DNA of 64,000 nt from Oleiharenicola lentus (GTDB lineage: Bacteria > Verrucomicrobiota > Verrucomicrobiia > Opitutales > Opitutaceae), in NCBI RefSeq assembly GCF_004118375.1, contig NZ_SDHX01000001.1, positions 248,001-312,000 on the forward strand. The letters are read 5' to 3'. This document shows, piece by piece, positions 11,397 through 54,756 of the stretch (position 1 is its first letter; the number at the start of each line of letters is the position of its first letter). Below the pieces are notes generated by a model, which saw nothing but the letters and a program-made list of their open reading frames with translations, was not told the origin of the DNA and did not search any database. The translations under genes were made by a program, and so were the position numbers.

Positions 11397-13289
11397 TTAG
11401 GTAAAAGCCGGCAACGACCAGTGACGCACGATCCACCCTCCCAGTTTCGGATGGGCGAGGGTCCACTCGCCCGCCGCGGCGGTCACAATCACCCAGGCAT
11501 CACCCTCGGTGCGGTCGGAGCCGCTCCAGCTGAGCGCGACCAGCACGCCCGCGCCCGAGTGGCGGGGCGTGGTAAAGACGGGCGTCACATGATACGGCGC
11601 GGCGACGTGGCGGCGCTCGGTGGCGTCGTCGAGCCGCTGGTCCCAGTCGGGCGTGGCGGTGCCAGCGAGGAGTTGCAGGACGGTGCCGCGATTGTCGGGC
11701 GAGAAGAAGGCGAGCGTGGAGCCGGTGCTTCCGGCTGGATTTAAGCCCGCGCGGAGCGCGGGCTCCACCTGGGTGAGCGGCAGGGCGAAACCGCCGAGAC
11801 GGAGCACCACGGGTTGGCGGGCCTCGTAGCAGTGGACGTGCAGCAGCCAGCCGGCGCGCCAGAAGACGAAGGTCTCGACGCTGGTGTTCACCTGGCCCGT
11901 CTTGAAACCCATGTTCCAGGAATAGCCGAGGTGGTCGGCGTCCAGCTCGACCGCGACGGTTGAGTGGCGTCCGAAAACGCGGTCGTCGTCGAGCTGCTGC
12001 GTGAGCGCGCTGTCGCAGGAGACGTTCGAGATTTCCGGGAAGGCGTAGGTGAAGTGGACGCCGGTGCGGTAGCTGAGCTTGCTCCATTTCCACGCGCCGT
12101 AGCGGAGCTGGGTGTTGCCGACCATGGAGCCGGCGTTGAGGATCTCGACCTCGCCATCCGGCGTGCTGCGGGTGACGAGGCCCGGCGCGGGCATCACGCG
12201 CACAAAGCCGCGCTCCGCCGGCAGCGGTTGCTCGGGTTCCGTCCAGAACGCATGCTCCGGCGGCAGCAGGAGCGGGGTGAAACCCTTGGCCGCCCAGTAG
12301 GGCGAGGCCGGCGCGGAGTAGGGTTCGATGATTTTCGGAAAAACGTCGGTGAAACCCGAGGCGAGCGCGCCTTGGGCCGTGTAGATCGGCCGCGCGAGGA
12401 AGAAGTCGAGGTTGCGCGTGCAGAGCCGGCGCAGCAGCCCGGGCGCGAGATCGGTGCAGTTTTCCGCGAGCGCGAGGCCGAAGACGTTGAGGCCGTTGAA
12501 CCGGTAGGTGATGGAGCGGCCGAAGGCCGGGTGCTCGCCGCTGGCGGCGAAGAAGTGCGCGTAGTCGGCGACGAAGAGCCGCGCCCAGTCGCGCCAGCGT
12601 TGGGCGCGTTTCGCGTCGGTTGCTCCGTGGAGGTGGGCCCACATCAGGCCGTAGAAGTGGAAGGCGTAGGCGTTGTAGTGGTCGTAGGCCTGGTTGATGC
12701 CGTCCTCGAACCAGCCGCCGCCGCGGTGCATCGTCTCAAGCTGGTTGAGATGCGCCGTGACGACGGCGGCGTCGGTGCGGTGCGCGGCGCCCAGGGTGCG
12801 CAGGAATTCCAGGATGTGCACCGACATGAACAGGTGGTTGTTGTTGACGATGCCGCCGCCGCGGCAGGTCGCGAACCAGCGCACCACCTGCGCCTTGGTC
12901 GCGGCGGGCAATGGCTCCCACAGGTCGCGCGGAGCGAGTTGCAGCCCGATGGCCATGAGGCCCATCTCGACGTGGTGCTGGTGGTAGCTGGCGTCGGGGC
13001 CCCAGTAATGCGGCGAAGTGGGATCGGTGCCGAGGGCGAGACCGGCGCGGAACCACGCGGCGGTTTTCTCGCGCAGCGCGGCGTCCTCGGGCCGCGGGAC
13101 CGATTGCAGCCAGAAGGCGGCGAGCACGAGCGGGCGGGCGAAGGATTCCAGCCGGTCCGCCTGCGCGTCGTGGTCGGACGGCGCGCCCGCGATCGGCAGG
13201 TCCGCGCGACCGGGTTGCATCAGCGCAGCGAGCGGCTCGAGCAGCCGGCGAGCGGCGTCCTGCCAATGACGGTATGATGCAGGCAGCAT
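11397..13289 (-). CDS. DUF2264 family protein
   Basis: Protein of about 630 residues matching the DUF2264 pattern: an N-terminal alpha/alpha barrel with WFATCRGGGIVNNNHLFMSV and GGWFEDGINQAYDHYNAYAF, and a C-terminal beta-rich half. Homologues sit beside uronate-polymer enzymes and are suspected hydrolases, but no activity is assumed. The start at 13289 is 2 bp after the stop of the dehydrogenase gene. No signal peptide is evident, so it probably acts in the cytoplasm on imported oligosaccharides. A dispersed palindrome (11716-11768) lies in frame inside the gene and encodes VEPALRAGL near residues 508-516. Confidence 0.85.
   Translation of the reverse strand: MLPASYRHWQDAARRLLEPLAALMQPGRADLPIAGAPSDHDAQADRLESFARPLVLAAFWLQSVPRPEDAALREKTAAWFRAGLALGTDPTSPHYWGPDASYHQHHVEMGLMAIGLQLAPRDLWEPLPAATKAQVVRWFATCRGGGIVNNNHLFMSVHILEFLRTLGAAHRTDAAVVTAHLNQLETMHRGGGWFEDGINQAYDHYNAYAFHFYGLMWAHLHGATDAKRAQRWRDWARLFVADYAHFFAASGEHPAFGRSITYRFNGLNVFGLALAENCTDLAPGLLRRLCTRNLDFFLARPIYTAQGALASGFTDVFPKIIEPYSAPASPYWAAKGFTPLLLPPEHAFWTEPEQPLPAERGFVRVMPAPGLVTRSTPDGEVEILNAGSMVGNTQLRYGAWKWSKLSYRTGVHFTYAFPEISNVSCDSALTQQLDDDRVFGRHSTVAVELDADHLGYSWNMGFKTGQVNTSVETFVFWRAGWLLHVHCYEARQPVVLRLGGFALPLTQVEPALRAGLNPAGSTGSTLAFFSPDNRGTVLQLLAGTATPDWDQRLDDATERRHVAAPYHVTPVFTTPRHSGAGVLVALSWSGSDRTEGDAWVIVTAAAGEWTLAHPKLGGWIVRHWSLPAFT
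11716..11768. repeat. In-frame palindromic element inside DUF2264 gene
   Basis: Terminal arms GTGGAGCC and GGCTCCAC enclose two hairpins, one on GCCCGCG/CGCGGGC and one on GCCGG/CCGGC. The first half is identical to the segment inside the GH2 gene at 36939-36964 and near-identical to the intergenic copy at 54714-54756. Confidence 0.8.
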
Positions 13290-13291
13290 GG

Positions 13292-14296
13292 TCAGGTGGC
13301 TGTGTCGTAAACCTCGGGCGTGACGACGGCCTGCAAGGGCCGGCCGGTGCAATAGGCGCGCAGGTTGGCGAGGGCGAAGGCCCCGGCGTCACGGCGGCGG
13401 TCAGTGGTCGGGCCGGCGATGTGCGGCGTGAGCGTGACGTTGCGCAGGCCGCGGAACGGCGAGTCGGCGGGCAGCGGCTCGACCGTATAGACGTCGAGCC
13501 CGATCTGGATGCGTCCCTCCTGGGCCACGCGAAGCAGCGCGGCCTCGTCCACCACGGCGCCGCGGCCGACATTGACGAACACGCCGCCCGGACGGACGAG
13601 ACGCAGGTGCTCCTCGCGCACGATGCCGCGGGTGGAGTCGTTGAGGGGGGCGAGTTCCACGATGATGTCGTTCTCGGCAAAGAGTTCCTCCAGCGAACCG
13701 GCGCAGGCGAGGCCGAGGCCGGGAGCGGTGCCCGGCGTGACGTCCGGCGCGAAGGCCATGATCGGCGTGCCGAAGGGACGCAGCAGCTGCACGAGCTCGC
13801 GCGCGATCTGGCCGAAGCCGTGCAGGCCCACGCGCCGGCCGAAGAGCGAGGCGGTTTCGCTGCCGCCGTTTTTCCACGCGCCCTCGTGGTGCATCGCGAT
13901 GGTCCAGTAGGTGGCGCGCCGCAGGCAGGACAGGATGTGGAACAGCGCCCACTCGGCCACGATGCGGCTGATCGAGCCGCCCCAGTTGGTAACGGTGAGG
14001 CCCGCCTCGAGCTGCGGGCGCGTGACGAGCCGGCGCACGGAGCCGCAGAGGTAGCACACGTAGCGGAGGTTCGGCGGCAGGGTGGCGGGCAGCGCCGGGG
14101 TTTTCCAGCCGCCGACCAGCACCTCGGGATTGGCCGCGGCGAGAGCGGCATGGAAGTCTTCGACGGAGCCCGCGGTCGGGTCGCAGGCGGTGAAGCTGCC
14201 CGCGAGGGCGCGCACCTCGCCGAGCAGGGGCTCGGGCAGGAATTCGAGGAGTTCCGCGTCGGTGACGGCGGCGAAGACAGCAGGGCGGCGGTTCAT
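13292..14296 (-). CDS. D-2-hydroxyacid dehydrogenase (NAD-binding)
   Basis: Cytoplasmic oxidoreductase of about 334 residues. It has the NAD loop GLHGFGQI (157-164), VNVGRGAVVDE with Arg245, EP at 273-274 and PHIAG with His292, which together form the catalytic Arg-Glu-His set of the family. The start at MNRRPAV (14296) follows the stop of the phosphomannose isomerase gene by 1 bp. Such enzymes reduce 2-keto acids; inside a uronate operon a role in converting an unsaturated-uronate-derived keto acid is plausible but not demonstrated. Glycerate or phosphoglycerate dehydrogenase activity is the main alternative. Confidence 0.88.
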   Translation of the reverse strand: MNRRPAVFAAVTDAELLEFLPEPLLGEVRALAGSFTACDPTAGSVEDFHAALAAANPEVLVGGWKTPALPATLPPNLRYVCYLCGSVRRLVTRPQLEAGLTVTNWGGSISRIVAEWALFHILSCLRRATYWTIAMHHEGAWKNGGSETASLFGRRVGLHGFGQIARELVQLLRPFGTPIMAFAPDVTPGTAPGLGLACAGSLEELFAENDIIVELAPLNDSTRGIVREEHLRLVRPGGVFVNVGRGAVVDEAALLRVAQEGRIQIGLDVYTVEPLPADSPFRGLRNVTLTPHIAGPTTDRRRDAGAFALANLRAYCTGRPLQAVVTPEVYDTAT

Positions 14297-36080: not shown

Positions 36081-38978
36081 ATGAAATCTTTCCGCCAGCT
36101 TTGCCTGTTGTGGCCGCTGCTTCTCGCCTCGCTCGCCGCCCGCGAGACCGAAATCCGTCATCTCTCGGGCACCGGCCCGGAGAACGCCGTCAAATGGGAA
36201 TTCCTCTGCACGGGCGGACGCAACAGCGGCACCTGGACCACCATCCCCGTGCCTTCGTGCTGGGAGCAGCAGGGCTTTGGCACCTACAACTACGGCGTCA
36301 ATCACCGGCCGGGGCGCGACAAGCCCAACCCGCCGCCGCTCGCCGACGAGGAGGGCCACTACCGCCACACCTTTCGCGTGCCGGCGGAATGGCGCGACCG
36401 CGCCGTGCGCATTGTGTTCGACGGCGTGATGACCGACGCCGAGGTGAAGATCAACGGGCGCTCCGCCGGCCCTGTCCACCAGGGCTCGTTCTACCGCTTC
36501 CATCACGACATCACCGCGCTGCTGGATTTCGCCGGCGACAACCGCCTCGAAGTCGTCGTCCGCAAAAAATCCGCCAACGAGAGCGTCAACCGCGCCGAGC
36601 GCCTCGGCGACTACTGGCTCTTCGGCGGCATCTTCCGCCCGGTGTGGCTCGAGGCCCGTCCGCGCGACGCCATCGAGTGGACCGGCATCGATGCGCGGGC
36701 CGACGGCACGTTCACGGCCGACATCCACCTCGGCGCACCTGCCGCGAAAGCCGGGCGCGTGACCGCCGTCGTCACCGACCTCGCCGGACGTGAGTTGGGG
36801 TCTCCGCTTACCGCTGACTTTGCCGCTGGAGCGACCAAGGCCACCGTCACCGGTCGCTTTGCCAACCCCGCGCTCTGGACCGCCGAGACGCCGAACCTGC
36901 ACCGCGCGAAATTCACGCTGGCGCTTGAGTCCGCCAAGGTGGAGCCCGCGCTCCGCGCGGGCTTGGTCGATAACCACACCGTCACCGAACGCTTCGGCTT
37001 CCGCACTTTCGAGGTTCGGCCCAATGACGGCCTCTACCTCAACGGCGCGAAGATCATCCTCAAGGGCGTCAACCGCCACTGCTTCAATCCCGACACCGGC
37101 CGCACCATTTCCCGTGCCCAGAGCTACGCCGATGCGCGCCTGATCAGGGAGATGAACATGAACGCCGTGCGGATGTCGCACTACCAGCCCGACAAGCACT
37201 TCCTCGAGGCCTGCGACGAGCTCGGCCTCTACGTGCTGAACGAGCTCGCCGGCTGGCAGGGCTTCTACGACACGCCGACCGGCACGCGCCTCATCGGCCA
37301 GCTCGTGCGCCGCGACGTAAACCACCCGAGCATTCTGTTTTGGGACAACGGCAACGAGGGCGGCTGGAATACCGAGGTGGACGGAGAGTTTGCGAAATGG
37401 GACATCCAGCGGCGCCCCGTGCTGCACCCGTGGGCGAAGTTCAGCGACGTGGACACCGACCACTACGAGCCGTGGGACTCGCACGTGAAGAAGAGCGCCG
37501 GCCCGATGATTTATCTGCCCACGGAGTTCCTGCACGGCCTCTACGACGGCGGCATCGGCGCCGGCCTGCGCGACTACTGGGACGAGATGATGAAGCACCC
37601 GACCGTCGCCGGCGGTTTCTTCTGGGTCTTCGCCGACGAAGGCGTCGCCCGCGCCGACCAGGGCGGTCGCATCGACAACGCCGGCAACTACGCCCCCGAC
37701 GGCATCGTCGGCCCCCACGGCGAGAGGGAAGGCAGCTTCTACACCGTGAAGGAAATCTGGTCGCCGGTTCAGGTCGAGATGCAGGGGAGTAACTTCGAGG
37801 CCATCACCTTGAAGCTGAAGAACGATTACGCCTTCACCAACCTCAAGGACTGCACGTTCATCTGGAAACACGTGCGCCTGCCGACAGCGGGCGAGCCGGG
37901 AGAGGGGAGGACCTTCACGCAAGGAGCGCAGAAAGGACCGGACGTGCCACCCGGCGGCACCGGGGAGCTGACCATCTCCTTCGAGCACGAGGATCTTGAT
38001 CGAAACAACCGGCTGTATGTTACCCTGGTCGATCCGAAGGGCCGTGAAGTGCTCACAGTTTCGGGATTCACCGGCCTCCGTGCGTTCCATTCGCTGCCCC
38101 AGCCCCGCGCAAATTGGGCTGCCATGATGCGCGTTCCGGAGGAGAGCCTTCCTCCCGATCCGGTGAAGGAAACTCCGCGGGTCGAGGAGACGGCCGATGC
38201 CCTGATCGTGCAGGCGCGTGCGTCGCAGTTCACGTTCTCGAAGACCACGGGTCGCCTGGTTGCTACCACCGTAGACGGTCATGACTGGTCGTTCCTCACC
38301 GGCCCGACCTTGCTGGGGTTGAAGCGCCAGGACCGTTCGTTCGTTCCCATCGCTCCCGAGCCGACACTGATGTCCGTCAAACATGATCTGAGCACCTTTT
38401 ACGGAACCGCGAGCATCACGGCCACCTACGAGAATCCCCGGATGACCTTGCACTGGTTTGTCGGTCTCGAGGGGAAGGTAACGCTGAATTATTGGATGAA
38501 TGTCCAGGGTGAGCTCGACGTCCTCGGCTTGCGCTTCGACCTGCCTGAGCACGTTCTGAAATCCAAACGCTGGCTTGGCTACGGGCCCTATCGCGTCTGG
38601 CGCAACCGGATGGAAGGCGGGCAATACGGCGTGCACGAGGTGGCCTTCAACGACGCAACACCGGGCGAGAGCTACGCCTACCCGGAGTTCAAGGGCTACT
38701 TCCGCGACTGGGAATGGATCACTCTGGAGACGAGCGCTGGGCGACTATCCGTTTCTCATGAGAACAGTGAATCGTCCCCCTTCTTCGGCCTCGGCAAACC
38801 GCGCGACGGCGTGAACGGCCTGCTCAACCTGCCCGATGTCGGGCTCAGCTTCCTCGAGATCATCCCCGCCATGCGGAACAAATTCCACACCACCGACCAG
38901 CTCGGCCCGCAGTCGGCCACCCCGGTGGTGAAAGACAGCCACTCCGGCACCGTAATCTTCCGCTTCAGTCCCCCGTGA
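36081..38978 (+). CDS. Glycoside hydrolase family 2 (beta-galactosidase-like)
   Basis: Predicted exported retaining glycosidase of 965 residues. A signal peptide (ends near LASLAAR) precedes a sugar-binding jelly roll (DGVMTDAEVKINGRSAG), an immunoglobulin-like domain and a TIM barrel with NRHCFNPDTGRTISRAQSYA. The catalytic acid/base is Glu426 in DNGNEGGWN and the likely nucleophile is Glu482 in LPTEFLHG. A long C-terminal extension follows. Activity on beta-galactosides or beta-glucuronides is possible; galactan side chains fit the locus. The dispersed VEPALRAGL element lies in frame near residues 287-295. The stop overlaps the GTG start of the next gene. Confidence 0.88.
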   Translation: MKSFRQLCLLWPLLLASLAARETEIRHLSGTGPENAVKWEFLCTGGRNSGTWTTIPVPSCWEQQGFGTYNYGVNHRPGRDKPNPPPLADEEGHYRHTFRVPAEWRDRAVRIVFDGVMTDAEVKINGRSAGPVHQGSFYRFHHDITALLDFAGDNRLEVVVRKKSANESVNRAERLGDYWLFGGIFRPVWLEARPRDAIEWTGIDARADGTFTADIHLGAPAAKAGRVTAVVTDLAGRELGSPLTADFAAGATKATVTGRFANPALWTAETPNLHRAKFTLALESAKVEPALRAGLVDNHTVTERFGFRTFEVRPNDGLYLNGAKIILKGVNRHCFNPDTGRTISRAQSYADARLIREMNMNAVRMSHYQPDKHFLEACDELGLYVLNELAGWQGFYDTPTGTRLIGQLVRRDVNHPSILFWDNGNEGGWNTEVDGEFAKWDIQRRPVLHPWAKFSDVDTDHYEPWDSHVKKSAGPMIYLPTEFLHGLYDGGIGAGLRDYWDEMMKHPTVAGGFFWVFADEGVARADQGGRIDNAGNYAPDGIVGPHGEREGSFYTVKEIWSPVQVEMQGSNFEAITLKLKNDYAFTNLKDCTFIWKHVRLPTAGEPGEGRTFTQGAQKGPDVPPGGTGELTISFEHEDLDRNNRLYVTLVDPKGREVLTVSGFTGLRAFHSLPQPRANWAAMMRVPEESLPPDPVKETPRVEETADALIVQARASQFTFSKTTGRLVATTVDGHDWSFLTGPTLLGLKRQDRSFVPIAPEPTLMSVKHDLSTFYGTASITATYENPRMTLHWFVGLEGKVTLNYWMNVQGELDVLGLRFDLPEHVLKSKRWLGYGPYRVWRNRMEGGQYGVHEVAFNDATPGESYAYPEFKGYFRDWEWITLETSAGRLSVSHENSESSPFFGLGKPRDGVNGLLNLPDVGLSFLEIIPAMRNKFHTTDQLGPQSATPVVKDSHSGTVIFRFSPP
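36939..36964. repeat. In-frame VEPALRAGL element inside GH2 gene
   Basis: The hairpin AGCCCGCGCTCCGCGCGGGC is identical to part of the element inside the DUF2264 gene (11716-11768) and is read in the same frame, giving the same nonapeptide in an unrelated protein. Confidence 0.8.
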
Positions 38979-54713: not shown

Positions 54714-54756
54714 GGTGGAACCTGCGCTCCGCGCGGGTTGGCTTGCGGGCTCTACC
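54714..54756. repeat. Intergenic copy of VEPALRAG palindrome
   Basis: GTGGAACCTGCGCTCCGCGC followed by a GGGCTCTACC arm, 2 bp beyond the GH43 stop. It is the same family as the in-frame copies at 11716-11768 and 36939-36964, here outside a gene and slightly diverged. Confidence 0.75.

Follow-up and report, generated by a model that had tools for sequence, protein, structure and literature searches.

REPINs form a named system alongside RAYT-REP units, and the head-to-head dimers described below can be likened to them. For the RAYT-REP units of gamma-proteobacteria, the parts of the literature used here describe a GT(A/G)G head and a RAYT gene flanked by two inverted REPs (PMC2817692, PMC3686654). 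For Verrucomicrobia, the sections of PMC3733652 on which we draw report GTAG repeats, with Opitutus terrae as the species with the most intragenic GTAG repeats and with a GTGG head in the majority of its GTAG-20 elements. The intragenic hosts named in those sections for O. terrae are uvrA, DNA ligase and RNA helicases; inserts are suggested to be possibly neutral in linkers or loops; recB of two Xanthomonas species holds different REPs at about the same site; and the intragenic CGTC-type repeats of R. conorii are equated with RPE-4 and RPE-6 (PMC3733652).

The repeat family analysed here belongs to the GTAG/GTRG REP superfamily. Like GTAG-17, -19 and -20 of O. terrae, it consists of verrucomicrobial REPs that form dimers, and its GTGG head agrees with that of GTAG-20, a comparison made by the published description of the head and not by consensus. 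Of its hosts, the DUF2264, GH2, U32 peptidase and FAD/Fe-S oxidase genes are not among the O. terrae hosts named in the portion of PMC3733652 cited above. With the gamma-proteobacterial units, as those partial sources present them, it shares the GT(A/G)G head, a short palindrome, many copies and inverted REPs flanking a RAYT; it differs in phylum, and in that the probable cognate RAYT was found in a genome of the same genus rather than in the genome with most copies. The original prediction compared the element in concept with Rickettsia palindromic elements. That likeness holds, at the level of the sources used, in so far as both are palindromes in frame inside ORFs; kinship is not claimed, and the GTGG head and the RAYT relatives set the present element apart, by head type and RAYT link rather than by sequence comparison. 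Given the published GTGG heads and intragenic GTAG REPs of O. terrae, neither the element nor its translation is new in kind. What is newer is that a given protein loop can hold a different repeat from one relative to the next.

A GTGG-headed hairpin in the window and the genome

Three copies lie in the window (the whole 64,000-nt stretch of the Oleiharenicola lentus genome that was analysed). The first, at 11716..11768 on the minus strand (GTGGAGCCCGCGCTCCGCGCGGGCTTAAATCCAGCCGGAAGCACCGGCTCCAC, running from GTGG to CCAC), is a 53-nt head-to-head REP dimer in frame in a DUF2264 gene (11397..13292, minus strand), where it encodes VEPALRAGLNPAGSTGST. Its conserved arm (11744..11768, minus strand) has a GTGG head, a 9-bp stem and a TCC loop; the diverged partner arm (11716..11736, plus strand) has its own GTGG head and a 6-bp stem. 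The REP starts at residue 509 of the protein, outside the PF10022 match (residues 8-356). The second, a single REP of 26 bases at 36939..36964 on the plus strand (GTGGAGCCCGCGCTCCGCGCGGGCTT), is in frame in a GH2 gene (36081..38978, plus strand; PF02836, PF02837 and PF00703) and begins at residue 287, just past the PF00703 match (to 286) and ahead of the barrel match (from 316). As originally noted, the two copies share the same 26 bases, lie in frame in long ORFs and both encode VEPALRAGL; with the AG that precedes each, 28 bases are identical. The third had been placed outside the GH43 gene, starting at 54714 and potentially encoding VEPALRAGW. It is an intergenic dimer between two minus-strand genes and would indeed read VEPALRAGW, but it starts at 54715 (54715..54755, plus strand). 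Its second head, GTAG, lies on the minus strand from 54755 and, by direct reading, begins two bases past the stop codon of GH43. Folded as single-stranded DNA, the DUF2264 and GH2 copies beat 200 of 200 dinucleotide shuffles (z -5.5 and -4.2, respectively); the 54715 copy folds weakly (z -1.6, with 12 of 200 shuffles equally good).

The repeat unit is a dispersed hairpin, GTGG-AGCCCGCGC-TCC-GCGCGGGCT. At 25 nt, with a 9-bp stem and a TCC loop, it is a palindrome within the 20-40 bp range and has a short loop. A profile of 49 sites with ≤2 mismatches gives (A)G-GTGG-AGCCCGCGC-TCC-GCGCGGGCT as the unit with its preferred preceding context. Each base of the unpaired GTGG head is present in 92-100% of these copies, a conservation that arises partly by construction because GTGG was in the search pattern; outside the searched 23-mer, G is found at -1 in 98%, A at -2 in 63% and T at +24 in 96%. 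Stem pair 5/23 shows compensatory change: of 59 copies, 41 have G-C there, 11 have A-T and 7 have some other pair or a broken one, after exclusion of five matches at three places (L063, L065 and L072) that carry the loop in reverse complement. In these variants the loop downstream of the GTGG head reads GGA and not TCC, which would fit an inversion between the arms of the hairpin.

With ≤3 mismatches the 4.71-Mb genome contains 64 sites, and the reversed pattern has none. By itself the 11-base core does not exceed chance (19 in the window versus 20.2 in shuffles); the signal lies in the full element. The sites are many, dispersed and mostly intergenic: a purpose-made Markov gene caller trained on 29 window ORFs places 56 of the 64 between genes and 8 (7 elements) inside them. 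A head-to-head partner (≤6 mismatches) is present at 25/64 sites, compared with 2/64 on the upstream side. The element is very probably a GTGG-headed REP, often a REPIN-like head-to-head dimer, and a non-autonomous hairpin that a RAYT (Y1 tyrosine transposase) probably mobilised.

The positions of the intergenic sites bear on another explanation, that the hairpins are maintained because they act in transcription termination, in mRNA stability or as gyrase-type sites, with the intragenic copies as by-products. Thirteen of the 56 follow the stop codon of the upstream gene at a distance of 0-2 nt, and the sections of PMC3733652 used here place REPs mainly downstream of coding regions and suggest roles in RNA. 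Such placement may equally be just the sites that selection leaves, and a function of this sort leaves the RAYT flanks and the intragenic dimers unexplained. We consider it unlikely as the explanation of the family, and it is compatible with the RAYT-REP explanation.

Intragenic copies and the shared nonapeptide

Besides the DUF2264 and GH2 genes, the intragenic hosts are a gene with Pfam matches to DUF3418, OB_NTP_bind and HA2_C (L036), which we take to be an HrpA-like helicase, a U32 peptidase (L052), an FAD/Fe-S oxidoreductase (L065), a gene without a Pfam match (L067) and an acyltransferase (L070). The last two, still counted among the seven, are doubtful as elements: each has 3 mismatches, the G113 relative of L067 has part of the peptide too, and L070 was compared with one relative. 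In L065, at about 1000-1100, the GTGG REP adjoins a GTAG REP dimer (GTAGGGTCGGCCCTTGGGCCGACC); a GTAG dimer also lies in the same loop of the FAD/Fe-S oxidoreductase of G071, a genome of the same genus.

To compare the two window genes with their homologues, 30 DUF2264 and 30 GH2 sequences, own copies included, were aligned (identity classes 43-100% and 40-100%, respectively). The original prediction would have been undermined by conservation of the peptide in homologues that lack the repeat. Instead, none of the remaining homologues in the alignments, 29 for DUF2264 and 29 for GH2, has the nonapeptide at the REP position. An extra loop had also been anticipated, and the own DUF2264 and GH2 loops are each 33 bases longer than those of the syntenic genes of same-genus genome G113. 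Among the other hosts, the loop is short both in the HrpA-like gene of G113 and G037, where the insert is lacking, and in the FAD/Fe-S gene of G093 and G133. G113 was rejected as a clean empty site for DUF2264, since its loop holds a copy of a second GTGG family (G113:C1:1481240, 2 mismatches, one of 24 such sites in that genome). Judged by sequence comparison, VEPALRAGL is common to unrelated proteins by REP insertion and not by ancestry. The proposal that a dispersed palindrome accounts for the shared peptide is thereby upheld, by the 64 sites against none in the control and by the lack of the peptide from the aligned homologues.

The reading frame of the intragenic copies gives some colour to the opposite view, that VEPALRAGL is a selected protein motif or tag and that the identity of the DNA follows from the peptide. 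The four copies nearest the consensus read GTG-GAG in the same frame and orientation; the other three are in another frame, among them the good copy in L065, which encodes GGARAERGL. The frame is largely expected from codon phase: copies mostly follow AG, and in 11 window genes the A of a sense AG is at codon position 2 in 471 of 639 cases, so that, given the orientation, the GTG-GAG (VEPAL...) reading is the expected one. The frame need not, then, reflect selection on the peptide. A selected motif would also have to contend with bases that are identical between DUF2264 and GH2 and not merely synonymous, with 56 of 64 sites that the gene caller leaves untranslated and with the absence of the peptide from the aligned homologues; we regard it as extremely improbable.

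Under RAYT-driven insertion, a RAYT would mobilise the non-autonomous GTGG hairpin into new sites, an insertion that keeps the host frame would add a short peptide, and the peptide would survive where a loop tolerates the addition. By direct reading the GTGG unit has no stop codon in any of six frames, which is why a frame-keeping insertion would add a short peptide; a GTAG head instead of GTGG would put TAG in one frame. A puzzling peptide shared by unrelated enzymes can in this way be explained as translated repeat DNA, and VEPALRAGL-like motifs should not be taken for homology.

Relatives and candidate transposases

A search of the genome and of Opitutaceae had been suggested for the element. 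The pattern matches in 47 of 150 sampled family genomes; 39 of these have one or two sites, and so does the reversed control in a number of genomes. Within the genus, the counts are 64 in the own genome (G000), 19 in G113, 14 in G071, 6 in G037, 1 in G093 and 0 in both G130 and G147; matches in G071, G113 and G037 are partly of variant stem, with 6 of the 14 in G071 having the variant stem GACCTCCGGGC at 3 mismatches. In other genera, G054 (10 sites), G142 (8) and G043 (5) have matches that are all at 2-3 mismatches and with their own stems, and G031 has 3. A stricter pattern, run against named GTDB genomes among which the own genome may be absent, returned 30 stretches: 21 from one Verrucomicrobiota MAG, 8 from MAGs that bear the names Opitutus sp., Opitutaceae bacterium or Candidatus Didemnitutus, and 1 from a Gemmatimonadetes MAG.

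G071 carries a RAYT-type gene at C1:854124-854621 on the minus strand, with the Pfam domain at 854313-854507; the match is weak (E 4.7e-4, 21.9 bits; 23.4 with neighbours against a cut-off of 23). The gene is flanked by two inverted copies of the element, at 854132 (+) and 854710 (-) (span C1:854132-854732), with a dimer on the 5' side. The ORF runs into the 3' copy, so that its last residues are encoded by the REP (L193, 2122-2160). Among 30 loci of this RAYT subgroup, own included, GTRG hairpins occur on both sides in 25, on one side as scanned in 4 and on neither in 1; about a dozen loci have CGCGTTG-like stems, and the other stems differ. At L375 (G054:C6:53196-53612), a RAYT reading frame has an in-frame TGA and REP dimers on both sides.

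In the own genome, no copy of the 64-site family was found beside the four Pfam Y1_Tnp hits, in 3-11 kb around each. A fifth RAYT (L206, G000:C1:567360-567821), a 51% identical relative missed by the Pfam Y1_Tnp search, is the nearest found there, and it is flanked by the second GTGG family, GTGGAGCGCGTTGCCCTCAACGCGCT. That family has 7 sites in the own genome, 73 in G093, 36 in G071 and 24 in G113 (≤3 mismatches). One of the Pfam hits (L011/L073, G000:C1:1716818-1717325) lies between two hairpins GGCGCGGACTCCGTTCCGCGCC: upstream is a GTGG-headed hairpin that differs in sequence from the 64-site element, and a near copy of it lies on the opposite side; no further copies occur in the own genome at ≤3 mismatches. 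Own-genome RAYT genes were accordingly ruled out as the source at the sites examined (the four hits and C1:567360, with two further weak matches outside this set), and among these RAYTs the genome with most copies has no cognate. With no own RAYT beside the 64-site family, and the nearest one beside another family, the family may have outlived its transposase here. Copies were presumably moved by a G071-type RAYT, or by one since lost from the own genome. As for the palindrome being mobile, dispersal is directly seen, and we infer movement from presence and absence among relatives and from the RAYT flanks.

Protein loops that hold hairpins in several relatives

The HrpA-like helicase, matched in 132 of 150 genomes, gave the widest comparison: 111 homologues were fetched, and all 111 spanned the loop. 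Loop length ranges from 9 to 137 residues. At least one GTRG hairpin is present in 15 of the 111 (11 genera) and none in 96 by the same detector, where any GTRG-headed hairpin is counted as a hairpin and is not proof of a REP. Over 9.6 kb of loop sequence the detector finds 22 hairpins, compared with 2 over the 54.8 kb of coding sequence that flanks the loops, and codon-shuffled loops give a mean of 0.95 and a maximum of 4 over 100 rounds. Hairpins lie on both strands in 5 of the 15 (in G125 the two overlap). Several of the long loops (50-137 residues; L363, L340, L351 and others) have no GTRG hairpin by the detector.

In G043, G133 and G020 the DUF2264 loop is occupied by GTGG/GTAG hairpins of other sequence, and in G113 by a copy of the second GTGG family. 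A single detector finds hairpins in 5 of 30 DUF2264 loops, 6 in 1.87 kb versus 3 in 54.7 kb elsewhere in the genes. For GH2 the figures are 1 of 30 loops, and 1 hairpin in 1.57 kb versus 9 in 76.6 kb elsewhere; the one loop is the own copy, and there is thus no support for reuse of the GH2 loop.

We tentatively propose, as possible rather than probable, that certain loops are standing REP landing sites across the family, into which each lineage's RAYT-REP system would repeatedly write its own peptide, a recurrent source of loop evolution. The shared occupancy could also be inherited, with an ancient REP entry later overwritten or converted by newer REP families in place of independent hits. 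As inheritance would predict, G000 and G071 have related GTGG elements at matching positions of the HrpA-like gene, and the same FAD/Fe-S oxidoreductase loop contains GTAG dimers in both. Short loops of 9 residues without a hairpin, in same-genus G113 and G037 and in other genera, argue against it, as do hairpin stems and spacers that differ between genomes, and we hold an inherited origin to be doubtful. Loop occupancy bears on the question of RAYT-REP influence on coding sequence as well as on spacers, and its repetition is a natural experiment on the tolerance of proteins for inserted DNA. If the landing-site reading is true, a domesticated transposase system would be a recurrent source of loop evolution. 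Among the open-licence papers listed, titles and the starts of abstracts gave nothing on REPs using one protein loop repeatedly in a family, and no open-licence paper joined the phrase repetitive extragenic palindromic with Opitutaceae; both are weak negatives.

Inserts were also compared with the hairpins of fetched RAYT stretches, using all hairpins in each stretch and not just the immediate flanks, with incomplete RAYT sampling per genome. Of 18 loop inserts, most did not match the genome that carries them best: that genome gave the best match for 4, shared the top rank for 1 and came second for 1. It ranked lower for 9, among them the three G000 inserts, and 3 were from genomes without hairpins for comparison. 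A hairpin next to a G043 RAYT has exactly the sequence of the HrpA-like insert of that genome, and the two inserts of G071 are nearest to hairpins around that genome's own RAYTs.
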